Shown here piece after piece: positions 1 through 7,217 of a DNA stretch of 64,000 bases; the first letter of the stretch is position 1, and each line of letters begins with the position of its first letter. The stretch comes from Nocardia sp. NBC_00565 (GTDB taxonomy: Bacteria; Actinomycetota; Actinomycetes; Mycobacteriales; Mycobacteriaceae): contig NZ_CP107785.1 in the NCBI RefSeq assembly GCF_036345915.1, positions 1,364,001 to 1,428,000 of the forward strand, given 5' to 3'. The notes under the pieces were generated by a model that saw only the letters and a list, made by a program, of their open reading frames with translations, ran no database searches and was not told the DNA's origin. A program made the translations under genes and the position numbers.

Positions 1-173
1 AGCTGGCGGACCGCGTCGTAGCCGGTGACGAGCCAGCCCTCGTGACCGTCGGGGAAGACCATGGGACTGACCGGACGAGCCGCGCGCAGCCGGGTGATCT
101 CGCGGGGCGGGTCGAAGGGGCCCGCATTGCGCTCCACGGGGAGACCGTGCGGGATGGGGACCGTTTGACTCAT
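1..173 (-). CDS. Cytochrome P450, N-terminal part (cut by window edge)
   Basis: Reading leftwards from ATG at 173, the first 57 codons begin [18 protein letters not shown] and continue with PFDPP, then REITRLR and a [12 protein letters not shown] segment. That is the usual N-terminus of a soluble actinobacterial class I P450 (CYP105/107-like: P-F-x-P-P, then V-T-x-Y/H-x-x-V-R). A strong ribosome site (AAAGGA) lies 8-9 bases upstream of the ATG. Haem and oxygen motifs are outside the window, so substrate cannot be judged. It is divergent from the SARP regulator and has an operator-like repeat array in the promoter; a tailoring role in a secondary pathway is an inference. Confidence 0.75.
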
Positions 174-220
174 CGGGTTTCCTTTCGAGGCGGTTGTTGT
201 GACCACGGTCGCTGGCGGAC

Positions 221-249
221 CTGTCATGCGACTGACACGGCTCTGACAC
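221..249 (-). promoter_or_regulatory. SARP-type heptamer array upstream of the P450
   Basis: Three heptamers, CTGTCAT at 221, CTGACAC at 232 and CTGACAC at 243, are spaced exactly 11 bp apart. Heptameric direct repeats at 11-bp steps are the known operator form of SARP (OmpR-like winged-helix) activators. Relative to the P450 gene they run in the same orientation as the array in front of the exporter operon at 5342-5382. Binding is inferred, not shown. Confidence 0.6.
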
Positions 250-366
250 CGACCGTGCCGCCGCCTGAACCGTCCAGGGATACGGCGAAGCTCGACGGCG
301 CCCCCAACTTTCTGCGCCGCGTCAGCACTCGGATTCCTGCCAATCGCCCATGGCAAGATCAGCCAG

Positions 367-3300
367 GTGCAGATCGGGATACTTGGACCATTCGAAATTC
401 GCACGGACGACGGCGTTTTCGCCGACGTGCCGGGCGCGCGGCTGCGCGGGCTGTTGATCGCCCTCGCACTCGAACCAGGTCACGCGGTCCCGAAGGCGGC
501 GCTCATCGATTGGATCTGGGGTGAGCGCCCACCCTCCGACGCGGCGAATGCCTTGCACCGCTTGGTTTCCCGGTTGCGCAAGGCGCTGCCGGAAGGGTTG
601 ATCGAGGGGCAGACGGACGGCTACCGGTTGCGGGTGGAACCCGATGCCGTCGACGCCGTGCGGTTCGAACGCCTCGTCGCCCAGGCCCGCGATGACGAGG
701 ATCCACCGGGGGTAGGGCGGCTGCGCGAGGCCCTCGCATTGTGGCGCGGTGCGGCCATGCAGGACGTCGGTCTGCAGGATAGTGCGGCGTTCGACGCGGC
801 GGTCACCCGGCTCGAGGGGCTACGCCTGACTGCCATGGAGGATCGGTTCGATGCGGAGATCAGCCTCGGCCACGGTGTGGAGCTGGTCACGGAACTAACC
901 GACTTGGTGGCCGCGCATCCGGTGCGAGAACGGCTTGTCGCCGCGCTGATGCGGGCCCTCGTCGCGACCGGCCGCGACACCGAGGCGCTGCTCGTGTACG
1001 AGCGCACGAGAGAAACCCTGGCCGACGAGCTGGGCGTCGACCCCGCACCGGAGCTGTCGGCATTGCACGTCGCGCTGCTGCGGGGCGAGTTGGGACGGCG
1101 GGAGGAGAACCGGAAGACCAACTTGCGTGCCGAGCTGGCCAGCTACGTCGGCAAGGACGCTGATGTCGCCGCGGTCCGCGAACTCATCGCCGAACATCGG
1201 CTCACCACCCTGATCGGGCCGGGCGGCTCGGGGAAGACCAGACTTTCCACGGAAACCGCGCGTACGCTGCTCGGCGACCTGCCGGACGGAGTCTGGGTGG
1301 TCGAACTCGCGGCCATCGGCGCCGACGGTGACAAGGGGGGCGGGCCTACGGGGGGTGGGCCCGAAGGGCAGGGCGGAGGGAAAAGCGCAGAGCAGGGGGG
1401 CGGTAACAACATCGCGCAAGCGACGCTCGCCGCGCTCAAACTGCGGGATGCGCTGCTCGGCGAGGCGCCGGACGCGGAGCCGACGGATCGGGTCATTGCC
1501 GCGGTCCGCGAGCGGTCGATGTTGCTGATTCTGGACAACTGCGAGCACGTGATCGAGTCCGCGGCGACATTCGCCCATCGAGTGCTCGGCGAGTGCCGGC
1601 AGCTGCGGATCCTCGCGACGAGCAGGGAACCCCTGGGCATCACCGGTGAGGCACTATGGCCGGTCTTGCCGCTGGTTCTACCCGCGGAAGACGCCGACCC
1701 CGGCGAGATCGCGTCCGCTCCGGCCATCCGGCTGCTGCAGGACCGAGCCGGCGCGGTGCGCAATGACCTCGTGTCCGACGCCCACACATTGGCGACTTTG
1801 GCGCGCGTCTGCCGGGCACTGGACGGGATGCCACTGGCAATCGAACTCGCCGCGGCCAGGTTGCGCACCATGTCCCTCGATCAGCTCGCCCACCGGCTCG
1901 ACGACCGGTTCCGCCTACTGACCGGCGGTAGCCGTGCCGCGCTGCCCCGGCACCGGACACTGCGCGCGGTGGTCGACTGGAGCTGGGAGCTGCTCACCGA
2001 CGCCGAACGGGTGGTCCTGCGCAGGCTCTCGGTGTTCGCGGGCGGGGCGAGCCTGGAAGCAGCCGAGCGGGTCTGCGCGGGCACGGGAGGCGGACCCGAA
2101 GAGCAGGGGGGCGGGAAGAGCACCGGGCAGGGTGACGAGAAGAACGCGGCGGTCGAGGCGGAGGAGGTGCTCGAGTTGCTGACCGCGCTGACCGAGAAAT
2201 CGCTGGTGCTCACCGTGGGCGACCGGGCGCCGCGCTACCGGATGCTCGGCACGATCAAGGAGTACGCCGAGCAGCGGCTCGCGGAGGCGGGGGAATCGGA
2301 TCTGACGCGCCGTGCGCATCTCTCGTATTTCACCGAACTCGCCGAAATCGCGGAGCCGCATCTTCGCCTCGCCGAGCAACTGGAATGGCTTGCCACGCTC
2401 GAGGGCGAGCACGACAACATCGCCGCCGCGATGCGCGGCGCGATCGTGGCAGGCGAGGCAGATGGGGCGATGCGGCTCGCCGGTGCCGCAGGCTGGTACT
2501 GGTGGCTCGGCGGGCACAAGACGGAGGGCAACGAGCTGATGATGGCGGCCGTTACCCTGCCCGGTGCAGTGGCCGACGAGATCCGGGCCGTGGTGTACGC
2601 GCTTGTCGTACAGTTCGTGTCCTCCGGGCCGCAGGCTGACGAGTACTTCGCGGCGGAGTGGATCCACAAGGCTTACGAAATCAGCCAGCGTGTTCAGAGC
2701 CGTCACCCGGCGCCGAGGTTCCTCGCCGCACTGGAACGTATGTTGCAAGCGCCGGACGCGTTCCTGCCCGCATGGGAAGCACTGCTGGTCGACGAGAGCC
2801 CCTGGGTACGCGCCCTGGCCCGGCTGCAGCTCGGCAAGATGCGGATCCAGCTCGGCCACGGCGGCCGTGATGCGGACACATATCTCGAGACGGCGCTCAC
2901 CGAGTTTCGCGCGATCGGCGACCGGTGGGGGATTTCGTTCGCCCTGACCGAGCTGGCGAATCGTATCGCCATGCGCGGCGAGTTCGCCGGTGCGTGCGAG
3001 CACTACGAACAGGCGATCGCGGTCGTCCTGGAAGTCGGTGCCATCGAGGATGTCGTGTCGATGCGGTCGCGGCAGGCCCAGTTGTACTGGCTGCTGGGCG
3101 ATGAGGAGTCGAGCGCGGCTGCCATGGCCGAGGCGCAGCGGTTCGCGGAACGAGTCGCCTGGCCGAATGCGCTGGCCGAACTGGCGCTGACGAAGGCGGA
3201 GCTCGCGCGCTGGAGCGGCGACGCCGAGCAGGCACACCGGCAACTCGACGTCACGACAACCATGCTGGGCGACGACGCCGAGCGGGCAATCGTCCGCGCG

Positions 3301-3648
3301 GTGATACAAGACCTGCTCGCCTACCTTGCCGAGGATCTCGACGAGGCCCGTGCACACCGCATCGCGGCCTTCCAGGCGGCGTCGGAGGCGGGGCATGCAC
3401 CGCTGATCGCGCGGGTGCTCGTCGGTATCGCGGATCTGGCGCTGCGTGACCATCAGTACGAGCAGGCCGTGCGGCTGCTCGCGGCGAGCGCTGGCGTGCG
3501 CGGTCTGGCGGATCGTTCTCAACCGGATGTGGCCCGGATCGAGCAGGCCACGCGCAGTCGCCTCGGTGACACGAGGTTCACCGAGGCGACGGAGGAGGGG
3601 GCGCAGGCGAGCTTGCGCGAGTTGGTCGCGGTCACGCTCGCTTCATGA
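367..3648 (+). CDS. AfsR/SARP-type transcriptional regulator (BTAD + NB-ARC + C-terminal repeats)
   Basis: A 1093-residue regulator starting at GTG 367. Residues 1-95 form the OmpR-like winged helix ([24 protein letters not shown]), 96-250 the bacterial transcriptional activation domain ([23 protein letters not shown], shown in parts), about 260-560 an NB-ARC-type ATPase with P-loop GPGGSGKT at 284-291 and Walker B LLILD at 386-390, followed by an alpha-helical TPR-like tail. Such proteins activate antibiotic or secondary-metabolite promoters. Odd: two Gly/Gln-rich inserts (nt 1330-1410 and 2082-2147) break the ATPase half and resemble each other. It is convergent with the exporter permease, overlapping by 17 bp. 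No strong ribosome site is visible before the GTG, so the start is provisional. Confidence 0.85.
1330..1410 (+). repeat. Low-complexity insert 1 inside the SARP regulator
   Basis: Between Walker A and Walker B the protein carries [17 protein letters not shown] followed by AEQGGG, at about residues 322-348. At DNA level the G-rich core (from about 1354) resembles the second insert at 2082-2147: both read cccgaag-gcaggg and then a purine-rich aag/aaa-agc block. NB-ARC folds normally have no such loop here. Confidence 0.6.
2082..2147 (+). repeat. Low-complexity insert 2 inside the SARP regulator
   Basis: Encodes [18 protein letters not shown], related to insert 1 (shared GGGPE-Q-GGGKS core). 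The repeated core in two places of one gene suggests duplication of a small G-rich element kept in frame. Confidence 0.6.
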
Positions 3649-4381
3649 AAGTGGAACGCGCCCACAGGTACCCGACGACAGCGATCCCGACGCACCAGGC
3701 GATGGCGGCGATCGCGTCGCCGGTTTCCGGTGCGCCGTTGAGGAACCCGCGGATGGTTTCGATGATCGGCGTGAAGGGCTGGTATTCTGCGAACTGCCGC
3801 AGGCCCGGTCCCATCTTCTCCGCCGGTACGATCGCGCTGCTGAAGAACGGCAGCATGACCAGCGGCACGGACGCCAGACCCGCCGTTTCCGGAGACTTCG
3901 CCGCCAACCCCAAGGCGACCGTGAGCCAGCCGGCCGCGAAACCGAGCAGCACGACGATGCCGGCCACGCCGAGCCAGTCGAGGAAACGCGCGGACGGGCT
4001 GAATCCCAGCAGGAAGGCCACTCCGATGAGGGCCGCAATGGCGACGATGTTGGTCAGCACACTGGCGACGACGTGACCGGTCAGCACCGCACCACGGGAG
4101 ACGTCCATGACCTTGAACCGGTTGATGATGCCCTTCGTCATATCGGAGTTCACCGAGGTCGCGGTGGCCCCCAGCCCGTAGCAGACGGCCAACAGGGTCA
4201 GTCCCGGCGTGGCGTAGTCGATGTAGTCGACACCGACGTTGAAGGCGTCTCCGAACATGTACACGAACATCAACATGATGATGATCGGCATCAGGACCGC
4301 GTTGAACACCGAGGTCGGGTTCCGGGCGATGTGTTTGAAGTTGCGGCGCAACATGACAATCGAGGGGGATTTGGTGCTCAT
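3632..4381 (-). CDS. ABC-2 type exporter permease, DrrB-like
   Basis: A 249-residue integral membrane protein of the ABC-2 family. It starts with a short cytoplasmic N-terminus (LRRNFKHIARNP) and has about six hydrophobic segments, with the typical DrrB-like region PLVMLPFFSSAIVPAEKMGPG before the last helices. It is the membrane partner of the ATPase encoded just upstream: the ATPase stop and this start overlap in a TAATG, implying translational coupling. DrrAB pairs export anthracyclines and other lipophilic drugs; the substrate here is unknown. Its 3' end overlaps the convergent SARP gene by 17 bp. Confidence 0.85.
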   Translation of the reverse strand: MSTKSPSIVMLRRNFKHIARNPTSVFNAVLMPIIIMLMFVYMFGDAFNVGVDYIDYATPGLTLLAVCYGLGATATSVNSDMTKGIINRFKVMDVSRGAVLTGHVVASVLTNIVAIAALIGVAFLLGFSPSARFLDWLGVAGIVVLLGFAAGWLTVALGLAAKSPETAGLASVPLVMLPFFSSAIVPAEKMGPGLRQFAEYQPFTPIIETIRGFLNGAPETGDAIAAIAWCVGIAVVGYLWARSTFMKRA

Positions 4382-5319
4382 TATGCGATTACCTCCGTGG
4401 TGTTGCCCGTCAGGGTGAGGAAAACGTCGTCGAGGTCGGGTGTGTGCACGGAGAACTCTTCGGCGCTGAGTGAGTACTCGTCGAGCCTGTCCAGCAGAGC
4501 CCGCAGCGATGTCGTCCCGCCATCGCTGGGCACCCGCAGGGTCAGTGCCTCCTCGTCCCGCGTGGCGTCGGGGAACAGACGCTCGGCCGCGTCGAGTAGG
4601 GCGACGTTGGTGAACCGGAGCCGGACGTGCGTCCCGGGGATCTGGCGCTTGAGGTCGTCGGGAGTGCCCTGGGCGACCAGGCGGCCCTGGTCGAGCACCG
4701 CGATCCAGTCGGCGAGCTGATCGGCTTCCTCGAGGTACTGGGTGGTGAGGAAGATGGTCACGCCCTCGGCCACCAGGTCACGGATGATCGACCACATCGT
4801 GCGACGGCTGCGCGGGTCCAATCCCGTCGTCGGCTCGTCCAGGAAGATGATCTTCGGGTTGCCGACGAGCGTCATCGCCAGGTCGAGCTTGCGGCGCATA
4901 CCGCCGGAGTAGGTCGACGCGGGCTTGCGCGCAGCCTCCACCAGATCGAAGCGTTCCAGCAGCTCTGTGACGATCCGCTTGCCGTCTTTGGCGGAGACCC
5001 CGTTGAGGTCCACCATCAGCTGCAGGTTCTCCTGCCCCGTCAGCAACTCGTCCACCGCCGCGAACTGACCGGTGACCCCGATCGCCGCGCGCACCGCCTT
5101 GGCCTCGGTCGCGACGTCATGGTCGGCAACGCGTACCGACCCGCCGTCGGCCTTCATCAACGTGCTCAGCACGTTCACCGTCGTCGTCTTACCCGCCCCA
5201 TTCGGGCCGAGCAGGGAAAAGACCGTGCCCGCACGAACATCTAGATCGATGCCGTCGAGCACAACCTTGTCCCCGTATGTCTTCCGCAGCCCGGAAACCG
5301 CAATCGCTGAATTTCGCAT
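4381..5319 (-). CDS. ABC exporter ATP-binding subunit, DrrA-like
   Basis: A 312-residue ATPase with Walker A GPNGAGKT at 38-45, signature YSGGMRRKLD at 137-146, Walker B IIFLDEP at 157-163 and the DrrA-type C-terminal domain (LDEYSLSAEEFSVHTPDLDDVFLTLTG in parts). An upstream in-frame GTG at 5352 would give 11 extra residues but lies inside the CTGWCAC repeat array, so ATG 5319 is preferred. It powers the permease encoded next. Together with the P450 and SARP regulator it looks like an export/self-protection module. Confidence 0.88.
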   Translation of the reverse strand: MRNSAIAVSGLRKTYGDKVVLDGIDLDVRAGTVFSLLGPNGAGKTTTVNVLSTLMKADGGSVRVADHDVATEAKAVRAAIGVTGQFAAVDELLTGQENLQLMVDLNGVSAKDGKRIVTELLERFDLVEAARKPASTYSGGMRRKLDLAMTLVGNPKIIFLDEPTTGLDPRSRRTMWSIIRDLVAEGVTIFLTTQYLEEADQLADWIAVLDQGRLVAQGTPDDLKRQIPGTHVRLRFTNVALLDAAERLFPDATRDEEALTLRVPSDGGTTSLRALLDRLDEYSLSAEEFSVHTPDLDDVFLTLTGNTTEVIA

Positions 5320-5341
5320 GTGACCACCATCGGCATCCGGC

Positions 5342-5382
5342 CTGACACCCACCTGTCACGCCCCTGTCACGACCACTGACAC
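5342..5382 (-). promoter_or_regulatory. SARP-type heptamer array upstream of the DrrAB exporter
   Basis: Four heptamers CTGACAC (5342), CTGTCAC (5353), CTGTCAC (5364) and CTGACAC (5376) stand 11, 11 and 12 bp apart. The last repeat ends 22 bp before the exporter start, which fits a SARP site just upstream of a -10 element and a very short leader. Consensus and spacing match the array at 221-249. Confidence 0.65.
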
Positions 5383-5515: not shown

Positions 5516-6400
5516 TCAGCGCCCCGCACGCGCAACGGGTGGTGCGAGGTCGGCGGCGAGGTCGGCGAACTCCTCGATCAGCGGGCTGTGCCGGTCGGCG
5601 CCCCAGGCCAGGCTCACTTGGTTGGGTGCGATATCGGGCACCTTGAGGTAGGCGATGTCGGGACGTGTGTAGAAGGCCATGACCGACAGTGGCACGAAGA
5701 TGATGCCGCGGCCCGCGGCGACGTGTTCCAGCTTCTCCTCGACGCTGTGGAAGACGGGCACGTCCGGTCGCCCGATCCGAAGCTCGGTGGCGACGTCGCG
5801 CCATTCGGACACCAGCTCGGGGTCCTGCAACAGATGTTCGTCGGCGAGGTCGGCGACGTCAATGGTTTGTTTGCCGGCAAGCCGGTGCTCGGCGGAGACC
5901 ACCACGACGCGCGGTTCGGTGCACAGCGGTCGCACGGACAGGCCCTGCGCGTCGATCGGGAGACGGACGAAGCTGACGTCCACCCGGCCGTCATGGATCG
6001 CGGTGGTCTGGTCGTCCCAGGTGGTGCGGACCAGTTCGAGGGTGAGTTCGGGATGACGGTTGGCCATGGCCTGCACCGGGGCGGTCACGATGAGACCGGG
6101 CATGAAGCCGACAGTGAGGGTGTCGGCTCCGCGGGCCGCGCGTAGCACCCTGCGGCGCAATGCCTGTGCGCCGGCCAGCAACGGGCCGGCGTCGGCCAGC
6201 AACTGTTCTCCAGCGGGGGTGAGAACAGTCGAGCGCCGATCCCGGACGAAAAGCTGCACGCCCAGTTCGTCTTCCAGCGCCCGGATCTGCCGGGACAGCA
6301 CCGGCTGGGCGATGTACAGCTGTTCGGCCGCGCGGCCGAAGTGCAGCTGTTCGGCCACCGCCAGGAAATAGCGCAGCTTCCGGAGATCAACGTCGGCCAT
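5516..6400 (-). CDS. LysR-family transcriptional regulator
   Basis: A 294-residue LTTR. Residues 6-65 form the N-terminal helix-turn-helix (LRKLRYFLAVAEQLHFGRAA; LSRQIRALEDELGVQLF), and about 90-290 the periplasmic-binding-like effector domain. It is divergent from the SDR gene at 6501, the classical layout in which an LTTR controls its neighbour and itself. An imperfect dyad with a T-N11-A core (6400-6418) begins directly at its start codon. The inducer is unknown. Confidence 0.88.
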   Translation of the reverse strand: MADVDLRKLRYFLAVAEQLHFGRAAEQLYIAQPVLSRQIRALEDELGVQLFVRDRRSTVLTPAGEQLLADAGPLLAGAQALRRRVLRAARGADTLTVGFMPGLIVTAPVQAMANRHPELTLELVRTTWDDQTTAIHDGRVDVSFVRLPIDAQGLSVRPLCTEPRVVVVSAEHRLAGKQTIDVADLADEHLLQDPELVSEWRDVATELRIGRPDVPVFHSVEEKLEHVAAGRGIIFVPLSVMAFYTRPDIAYLKVPDIAPNQVSLAWGADRHSPLIEEFADLAADLAPPVARAGR

Positions 6401-6418
6401 AATGCCTTCAGGGTATTA
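6400..6418. promoter_or_regulatory. Probable LysR-type operator
   Basis: TAATGCC (6400-6406) and GGTATTA (6412-6418) form an imperfect inverted repeat around a 5-bp centre, with the T-N11-A pattern typical of LTTR boxes, in the 100-bp gap between the divergent LysR and SDR genes. Confidence 0.5.
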
Positions 6419-6500
6419 CAGCGATGAAGATAGGTCTTGGACCCGGCTGATCGCCGAGGCCAAGGTAGAGGGACCAGTTTCGAACGGAAAGGATCAGCCC

Positions 6501-7217
6501 ATGTCCCTCGCAGGTCAACACGTCGTCGTGCTCGGCGGCACCTCCGGTATCGGGTTCGCGGTCGCCTCCGCTGTAACCGATCGGGGTGCGAAAGTCACCG
6601 TCGTCTCCAGCCGCCGCGCCAATGTCGACCGCGCGCTGGCCGCATTGCCTAGTGGTAGCACCGGCCTGGTCGCCGACCTCACAGACGGCGAGGGGGTAGG
6701 TGATCTGTTCGGTGAGCTCGGCGCGCTCGATCACCTGGTGTATACCGCTGGTGCGGAGTTGCTGTTGTCCCCGCTGGCCGATCTCGACGTGGCCGCAGCC
6801 CGAAAGTTCTTCGAACTCCGCTACTTCAGTGTCCTGACCGCGGTTCAGGCCGCGGCGTCCAGGCTGCGACCGGACGGTTCGATCACCCTGACAACCGGCA
6901 CGGCGGGTCCGCGCCCGGTCCCCGGTTCGATAGTGGCGTCCAGCCTCTGCGGCGCGATCGAAGCGCTGACCCGAGCCCTCGCAGTCGAACTCGCTCCCAT
7001 TCGGGTGAACGCCGTCCAGCCCGGTGTGGTCCGGTCGCCGCTGTGGACCTTCCCCGACGATATCCGCGACCAGTTCTATCGCGACACCGCCGCGAACACC
7101 CCGCTGCGCCGCATCGGCGAGGTCGACGACATCGCCCAGGCATACCTGTTCTTCCTGACCCAGCCGCACGCCACCGGAACCGTGCTCACCCTGGACGGCG
7201 GCGCAATGCTCAGTTGA
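6501..7217 (+). CDS. SDR-fold oxidoreductase lacking the Tyr-Lys pair
   Basis: A 238-residue Rossmann protein with GGTSGIG at the N-terminus and the SDR end motif (GTVLTLDGGAMLS). The start at ATG 6501 is chosen because GGAAAGGA lies just upstream; a longer reading from 6402 would run through the operator. In place of the catalytic YxxxK the sequence reads RPVPGSIVASSLCGAIEAL, without Tyr or Lys, as in a small SDR subgroup often found beside LysR genes. Whether it is a catalytic reductase is therefore uncertain. Likely controlled by the divergent LysR protein. Confidence 0.8.
   Translation: MSLAGQHVVVLGGTSGIGFAVASAVTDRGAKVTVVSSRRANVDRALAALPSGSTGLVADLTDGEGVGDLFGELGALDHLVYTAGAELLLSPLADLDVAAARKFFELRYFSVLTAVQAAASRLRPDGSITLTTGTAGPRPVPGSIVASSLCGAIEALTRALAVELAPIRVNAVQPGVVRSPLWTFPDDIRDQFYRDTAANTPLRRIGEVDDIAQAYLFFLTQPHATGTVLTLDGGAMLS

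Follow-up and report, generated by a model that had tools for sequence, protein, structure and literature searches.

A large SARP probably leads a dispersed, array-marked regulon in Nocardia and other actinomycetes

Two arrays of tandem heptamers lie on either side of the gene for a large SARP-family regulator in a 64,000-nt stretch of the soil bacterium Nocardia sp. NBC_00565 (NZ_CP107785.1, positions 1,364,001 to 1,428,000; hereafter the window). One array precedes a cytochrome P450 gene and the other a DrrAB-like pump. Genome comparisons make it very likely that such arrays mark a dispersed regulon led by this SARP. An earlier note on this DNA had proposed a small oxidation and export module under the regulator; its idea of a regulon is right but too small, since arrays also precede genes elsewhere in the genome.

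The arrays follow the regulator from genome to genome. Among 148 congeneric genomes, 103 carry an array when one mismatch is allowed (reversed control, 1). All 103 are among the 128 genomes with a match to this SARP at E ≤ 1e-100; the 20 genomes without one have no array (Fisher 1e-12). At class level, across 296 genomes, arrays are present in 14 of 26 with the SARP (E ≤ 1e-180) and in 11 of 270 without it (reversed control, 4/296). Because of the split within the genus, 103/128 against 0/20, the arrays are probably those of this SARP, which would bind them.

Heptamer arrays and regulator in the window

The window holds the following core features.
221..249, minus strand: array 1, GTGTCAG, GTGTCAG, ATGACAG in gene direction (RTGWCAG), 11-bp steps
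5342..5382, minus strand: array 2, GTGTCAG N5 GTGACAG N4 GTGACAG N4 GTGTCAG in gene direction, steps 12-11-11
205..210, minus strand: −10-like hexamer GACCGT in the P450 promoter, with 10 nt between it and the last heptamer, a position kept in P450-class matches
5326..5331, minus strand: −10-like hexamer GATGGT of the drrA promoter; the A of the ATG lies 7 nt past its last base
367..3648, plus strand: large SARP regulator, 1093 aa, GTG start; winged helix and BTAD, then an ATPase-like and TPR-like region

Exact CTGWCAY heptamers stand on the plus strand at 221, 232 and 243 and at 5342, 5353, 5364 and 5376, where the earlier note had placed them. Its exact 11-bp spacing holds for both steps of array 1 and for two of array 2; the last step of array 2 is 12 bp, and the same 12-bp step to the outermost heptamer is seen again in relatives. 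The common orientation that it described was borne out: both arrays lie upstream of minus-strand starts, reading GTGWCAG in gene direction, with the P450 ATG at 173 and the drrA ATG at 5319 each downstream of its own array.

The signal is the arrangement of the heptamers, not their number. Single heptamers show no excess in the window (24 observed, 28.75 expected); exact triples number two, against none in 60 order-1 Markov copies of the window. The genome-wide scan that the earlier note had suggested, wary of many unrelated hits, returned only five exact triples at 11-bp steps in the 9.71-Mb single-contig genome, with recurring gene families behind them. Taking the cube of the simulated heptamer rate, 2e-4 were expected, and the reversed pattern gave 0 across the genome. 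Allowing up to two mismatches yields eight array places, again with 0 in the reversed control. Pairs alone are a weak signal, with three pair-only sites in the genome against about one expected. Two pair-only sites, at 6.52 and 7.94 Mb (L019:7823-7840, L020:7752-7769), have a common CGCG spacer and a similar downstream stretch; they may belong to another regulator or be chance.

The gene between the arrays has the SARP family architecture, as the earlier note had supposed. BTAD scores 129.1 bits (E=2.1e-37; cut-off 22.1) and Trans_reg_C 27.0 bits (E=4.7e-6; cut-off 26.2). AfsR structures 8hvr, 8jke and 8k60 match the protein with E down to 4e-35, and an EmbR structure matches too; the AfsR equivalog model NF053617 gives 156.2 bits, below its cut-off of 1430. 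The ATPase-like motifs GPGGSGKT and LLILDNCEH were picked by eye. Gly-rich low-complexity inserts interrupt the ATPase region at window 1321-1410 and 2083-2145 (GGGPTGGGPEGQGGGKSAEQGGGN and similar), and many ortholog matches break there.

Conservation across actinomycetes

The arrays accompany orthologs of this SARP across genera. We took the best 80 ortholog loci of a genome scan, 67-82% identical in the best segment, from Nocardia, Micromonospora, Kribbella, Amycolatopsis, Streptomyces and others. At least one array (at least 19/21) is present in 75 of them, for a total of 110 array matches, 108 of them distinct and two being overlapping registers; a complement-not-reversed control found 0 arrays at the same loci. 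By our own crude codon-usage gene caller, the first gene downstream is drrA in 60 matches (59 distinct) and P450 in 35 (34 distinct). The remainder are a hydrolase (1), a 134-aa protein discussed below (1), other called genes (11) and no called gene (2); by eye, eight of the 11 start like a DUF4097 protein, Pfam-confirmed once (L203). Within the genus, an exact triple array occurs in 37 of the 148 genomes (control 0), and 13 of these 37 have two arrays about 4-5 kb apart, as here.

Promoter geometry

The arrays sit in a conserved promoter frame whose geometry (11-bp repeats, 10 nt, GANNGT) fits a SARP site. Promoters of the drrA class place G-A-N-N-G-T (A 100%, T 98%) 10 nt past the core heptamers. 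An ATG or GTG start codon lies 22 nt (34 matches) or 23 nt (23 matches) past the last heptamer in 57 of 60; of the three that depart from this, one (L135) reads the same promoter in an overlapping register. With the −10 box at −12 to −7, the start codon would fall at +1 or +2, so the drrA mRNA is predicted to be leaderless. The drrA and hydrolase mRNAs should both begin in this way, with the start codon at the expected transcription start. P450-class genes have a leader. Perfect copies of the outermost repeat, set off by the 12-bp step, are present in 29/60 drrA-class and 2/35 P450-class matches.

This spacing agrees with the general SARP rule, by which heptamers recur as direct repeats every 11 or 22 bp and the 3′ repeat stands 8 bp from the −10 (PMC10936776; PMC7040171, which gives that distance for AfsR and others). 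Read in the register GWCAGNN, the last repeat here is 8 bp from a −10 placed by conservation. The earlier note held that the regulator turns on the P450 and the pump. Both are likely targets, backed by cross-genus conservation, phyletic co-occurrence and promoter geometry; activation we infer.

Which regulator reads the arrays

One residue of the SARP's recognition helix varies together with the heptamer. This helix comprises residues 61-74, NALHRLVSRLRKAL. In the alignment, residues 65 and 69 correspond to AfsR T88 and R92, which touch bases according to PMC10936776. Of the 80 orthologs, 79 retain R69, and residue 65 is R in 72, A in 7 and Q in 1. For covariation we combined the 80 loci with 60 hand-picked Nocardia loci and the window, minus 11 duplicate SARP N-termini. 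Of the 79 R65 loci with an array, 53 have A as the fourth heptamer letter and 3 have it as the third. Of the 45 A65 loci, none has A as the fourth letter and 43 have it as the third; Q65 loci number three. Because this covariation is confined to one clade, we count it as support only.

Several observations weigh against the overall reading of a regulon led by this SARP. Neither co-occurrence test was corrected for kinship. Arrays are missing at the one-mismatch threshold from 25 of the 128 congeneric genomes that bear the SARP, and from 5 of the 80 ortholog loci; conversely, 11 class-level genomes carry an array without the SARP (E ≤ 1e-180), above the control rate. The covariation is one event on the tree, hence one independent pair in one clade, and 2/45 A65 and 3/79 R65 loci break it. 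The assignment of the C-terminal part as NOD/TPR is weak (TPR_12, 20.1 bits; cut-off 30.1). Finally, counting this SARP, 14 BTAD matches are present in the genome, and one paralog, L031 at 5.63 Mb, is 47% identical and carries a helix, NALQALVSRVRRAV, near the A65-ortholog type.

The number of BTAD matches and the helix of L031 are what favours the arrays being bound, wholly or partly, by another SARP of the genome, and cross-binding by L031 is possible. We nonetheless consider that explanation quite unlikely. The exact triples are far from other BTAD genes, the nearest lying 241 kb away; none of the 12 other alignable SARP helices in the genome equals that of this SARP; and the arrays track its presence, with a helix residue that shifts with the heptamer. 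A non-regulatory origin of the arrays, as a repeat element or by chance in GC-rich DNA, is highly improbable. The arrays at 243918 and 338994 are indeed near-identical duplicates with common flanking sequence, as a repeat element would have it. Against this, heptamers are kept while spacers diverge, their position relative to the −10 and start codon is fixed, and control scans are empty or nearly so.

The dispersed regulon

Led by this SARP, the regulon would extend far beyond the window. The distal arrays of this genome are the following.
243.9 and 339.0 kb: before two near-identical (96%) copies of an unannotated 134-aa protein
343.4 kb: degenerate array, before a GtrA-type gene
3.61 Mb (L018:6420-7251): exact array, before a decayed-looking hydrolase/134-aa pair, then padR, DUF1048 and a second drrAB-like pair
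9.24 Mb: array with one mismatch, before an alpha/beta hydrolase, then a paralog of the 134-aa protein

The decay at 3.61 Mb shows in a hydrolase frame that is not open from the leaderless start and in a 73-aa remnant.

A few gene families recur behind the arrays. In this genome and many actinomycetes these are the DrrA-type pump, P450, alpha/beta hydrolase and the ~134-aa helical protein; GtrA, DUF4097, MMPL and beta-lactamase-like genes are rarer. We surveyed 40 hand-picked distal Nocardia arrays by their first gene (the second in two cases), naming genes that lacked a Pfam test by BLAST to references or by eye. Hydrolases lead (12), followed by GtrA-type genes (7, one Pfam-tested) and the 134-aa protein (5, plus one copy, L177, fused to a beta-lactamase-family domain). 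P450 genes account for 3 (one second, behind a ferredoxin gene). Two each are drrA-like, beta-lactamase-like (one Pfam-tested), DUF4097 (one Pfam-tested) and MMPL exporters (one second; one Pfam-tested). RibD_C, Rce1-like and a DUF4395 match below cut-off occur once each, and one array has no gene.

The 134-aa protein is a close companion of the array. All 30 loci returned by a genus search have an array (at least 18/21) upstream, within 104 nt in 28; at the other two it lies about 960 nt off, before an apparent hydrolase judged by its leader. Here the genes are L016:8501-8902, L015:9040-9441 and L021:9229-9633, and the family is present in 95 of the 148 genus genomes, often in several copies. 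His33 and His52 are invariant in 30 aligned members. Among 1145 database relatives, the 120 listed are mostly named "hypothetical" or "D-alanyl-D-alanine carboxypeptidase". The predicted model is all-helical (mean predicted local distance difference test score, pLDDT, 86) and has no PDB match at E ≤ 0.001; none of the three copies scanned has a Pfam family above cut-off.

The regulon may spread by promoter capture, because a leaderless promoter brings its start codon along. The GtrA gene of this genome (L016:12823-13362, Pfam-tested) opens with drrA-like codons: over 155 bp that take in the array, the −10 and about 31 first codons, it shows 86% identity with a Nocardia drrA. In the GtrA-type genes L179 (Pfam-tested), L192, L197 and L137 the drrA match runs 68-90 nt past the start codon, and in L185 and L202, likewise GtrA-type, it runs 30-41 nt. 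As a control, array matches of other classes were searched in the same way (12 at hydrolases, 31 at small-protein loci, 35 at P450 genes), and there it never extends beyond 27 nt. For L188, L206 and the ferredoxin gene L205 the match is only 7-19 nt, inside the control range, and on DNA alone these do not count as captures.

Model and function

We propose that the AfsR-like large SARP would bind side by side on three to four RTGWCAG repeats, one helical turn apart, upstream of a weak GANNGT −10 box, would recruit RNA polymerase there, and would activate the neighbouring P450 and DrrAB pump. Distal targets here would be the copies of the ~134-aa protein, the alpha/beta hydrolase paired with another protein of that kind and, less surely, the GtrA-type gene. 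A toxic small molecule would act as a post-translational switch of the SARP itself, by way of the ATPase/TPR part. We think such a switch more likely than autoregulation through arrays because none (at least 18/21) points at the SARP start within 600 bp at 141 loci. The job of the regulon would be defence against antibiotics or xenobiotics via oxidation, hydrolysis and efflux. The arrays, their geometry, conservation and co-occurrence with the SARP, and the gene families behind them are computational results, from which the rest of this model is drawn.

We lean towards this defence function with modest confidence, because the regulon includes P450, hydrolases and DrrAB and MMPL pumps. Counting against it, the assignment draws on gene families and one paper (PMC7559539) whose regulator is only a possible ortholog. 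That paper describes nine chelocardin-resistant Amycolatopsis sulphurea mutants, every one of which carried point mutations affecting an AfsR/SARP gene that adjoins drrAB; overexpressing drrAB gave no resistance, and its authors proposed further unknown targets. If the A. sulphurea gene is an ortholog, the present regulon may be a candidate for those targets. The species is missing both from the best 80 ortholog loci and from the 120 proteins listed out of 7972.

It is somewhat unlikely that the same SARP and arrays serve instead a secondary-metabolism or physiological programme, such as tailoring and export of the cell's own product. That explanation disputes the function only, and its probability does not compete with that of the core claim. 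SARPs are known as activators of antibiotic biosynthesis (PMC10972967); the P450, the hydrolase and the DrrAB pump might modify an endogenous product and carry it out of the cell; and no detoxifying role is evident for GtrA, DUF4097 or the 134-aa protein. Against this stand the negative search for biosynthetic core genes beside the locus (nonribosomal peptide synthetases, NRPS, were not searched genome-wide) and the pattern of targets, which are dispersed and species-variable, yet with pump and P450 recurring over genera. The resistance mutants in the Amycolatopsis SARP adjoining drrAB (PMC7559539) likewise favour defence.

A broader picture, tentative and a shade below even confidence, is that one large SARP subfamily would be the master switch of an actinomycete-wide defence regulon against many drugs and xenobiotics, dispersed over the genome and read from a fixed four-repeat leaderless promoter. 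The drrA promoter and first codons (up to ~30) would have been copied before unrelated genes, helix and heptamer would co-evolve, and the ~134-aa protein, an almost constant companion of the promoter, would be a new protein of defence.

Relation to known systems

DnrI, a SARP of Streptomyces peucetius, is part of the daunorubicin cluster. It reportedly binds drrAB and responds to drug, to go by the title of a 2017 paper by Prija. No such cluster was found here, and the present SARP, unlike DnrI, is large.

A close likeness is to AfsR of S. coelicolor and its afs box, as described in PMC10936776. Both are large SARPs whose winged helix and BTAD align over the N-terminal ~240 residues, in both, direct repeats of 11 bp closely precede a poor −10, and AfsR R92 corresponds to R69 here. 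However, afsS has two repeats where three or four are present here, the heptamer differs, and the T88 position, "highly conserved" in that paper, is R, A or Q in this SARP group. In place of afsS, the targets here are genes that look protective. PapR2 of Streptomyces pristinaespiralis, with the motif GTCAGSS (PMC7040171), has in common with this SARP a GTCAG core and a register in which 8 bp separate the −10 from the last repeat. It is described there as an antibiotic-cluster activator, whereas the motif here is a stricter RTGWCAG in three to four copies and the regulon is dispersed. The A. sulphurea AfsR/SARP resembles the present one in adjoining a DrrAB pump (PMC7559539), and many Amycolatopsis species carry this SARP with arrays.

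We found no description of this regulon in open-licence PMC papers. SARPs have been studied mostly as antibiotic-cluster switches (PMC10972967). A conserved, cluster-free SARP regulon of oxidation, hydrolysis and efflux would, if true, be an intrinsic actinomycete drug-response system, and could supply the targets missing behind the resistance mutants of PMC7559539. The array is a strict, searchable signature that would let regulons be recognised in genome sequences, and a SARP-DNA code could be tested on the R/A variants that occur naturally at one residue.

Neighbouring genes and the left flank

The target genes beside the SARP are the following.
1..173, minus strand: 5′ end of the cytochrome P450 gene, ATG 173; the full 408-aa gene runs left of the window (L014:16947-18173)
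3632..4381, minus strand: drrB-like ABC-2 permease (ABC2_membrane, E=3e-22)
4381..5319, minus strand: drrA-like ATPase, ATG 5319, predicted leaderless

The P450 matches Pfam p450 (E=1.1e-28), and its closest PDB structure is CYP105AS1 (E=1.3e-120). Scanned from 5322, the ATPase scores 320.5 bits against the DrrA subfamily model TIGR01188, above the cut-off of 312.45; the permease matches the DrrB model TIGR01247 at 43.5 bits, below the cut-off of 223.05. Farther on, at window 5516-7217, a LysR regulator stands divergent from a gene of the SDR family; neither has an array of its own.

The biosynthetic cluster that the earlier note had imagined to the left was not found. About 18 kb left of the window hold 10 called genes besides the P450. 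The six that were scanned encode alpha/beta hydrolase, AMP-binding, TetR, HAD, GT20 and PfkB proteins, with no core genes among them. No full-length ketosynthase occurs within 300 kb, in a search that did not cover NRPS genes genome-wide. One short ketosynthase match above cut-off, spanning 41/252 positions at 33 bits, lies at genome position 1,380,175 (window ~16.2 kb), and we take it for a putative thiolase-like enzyme.

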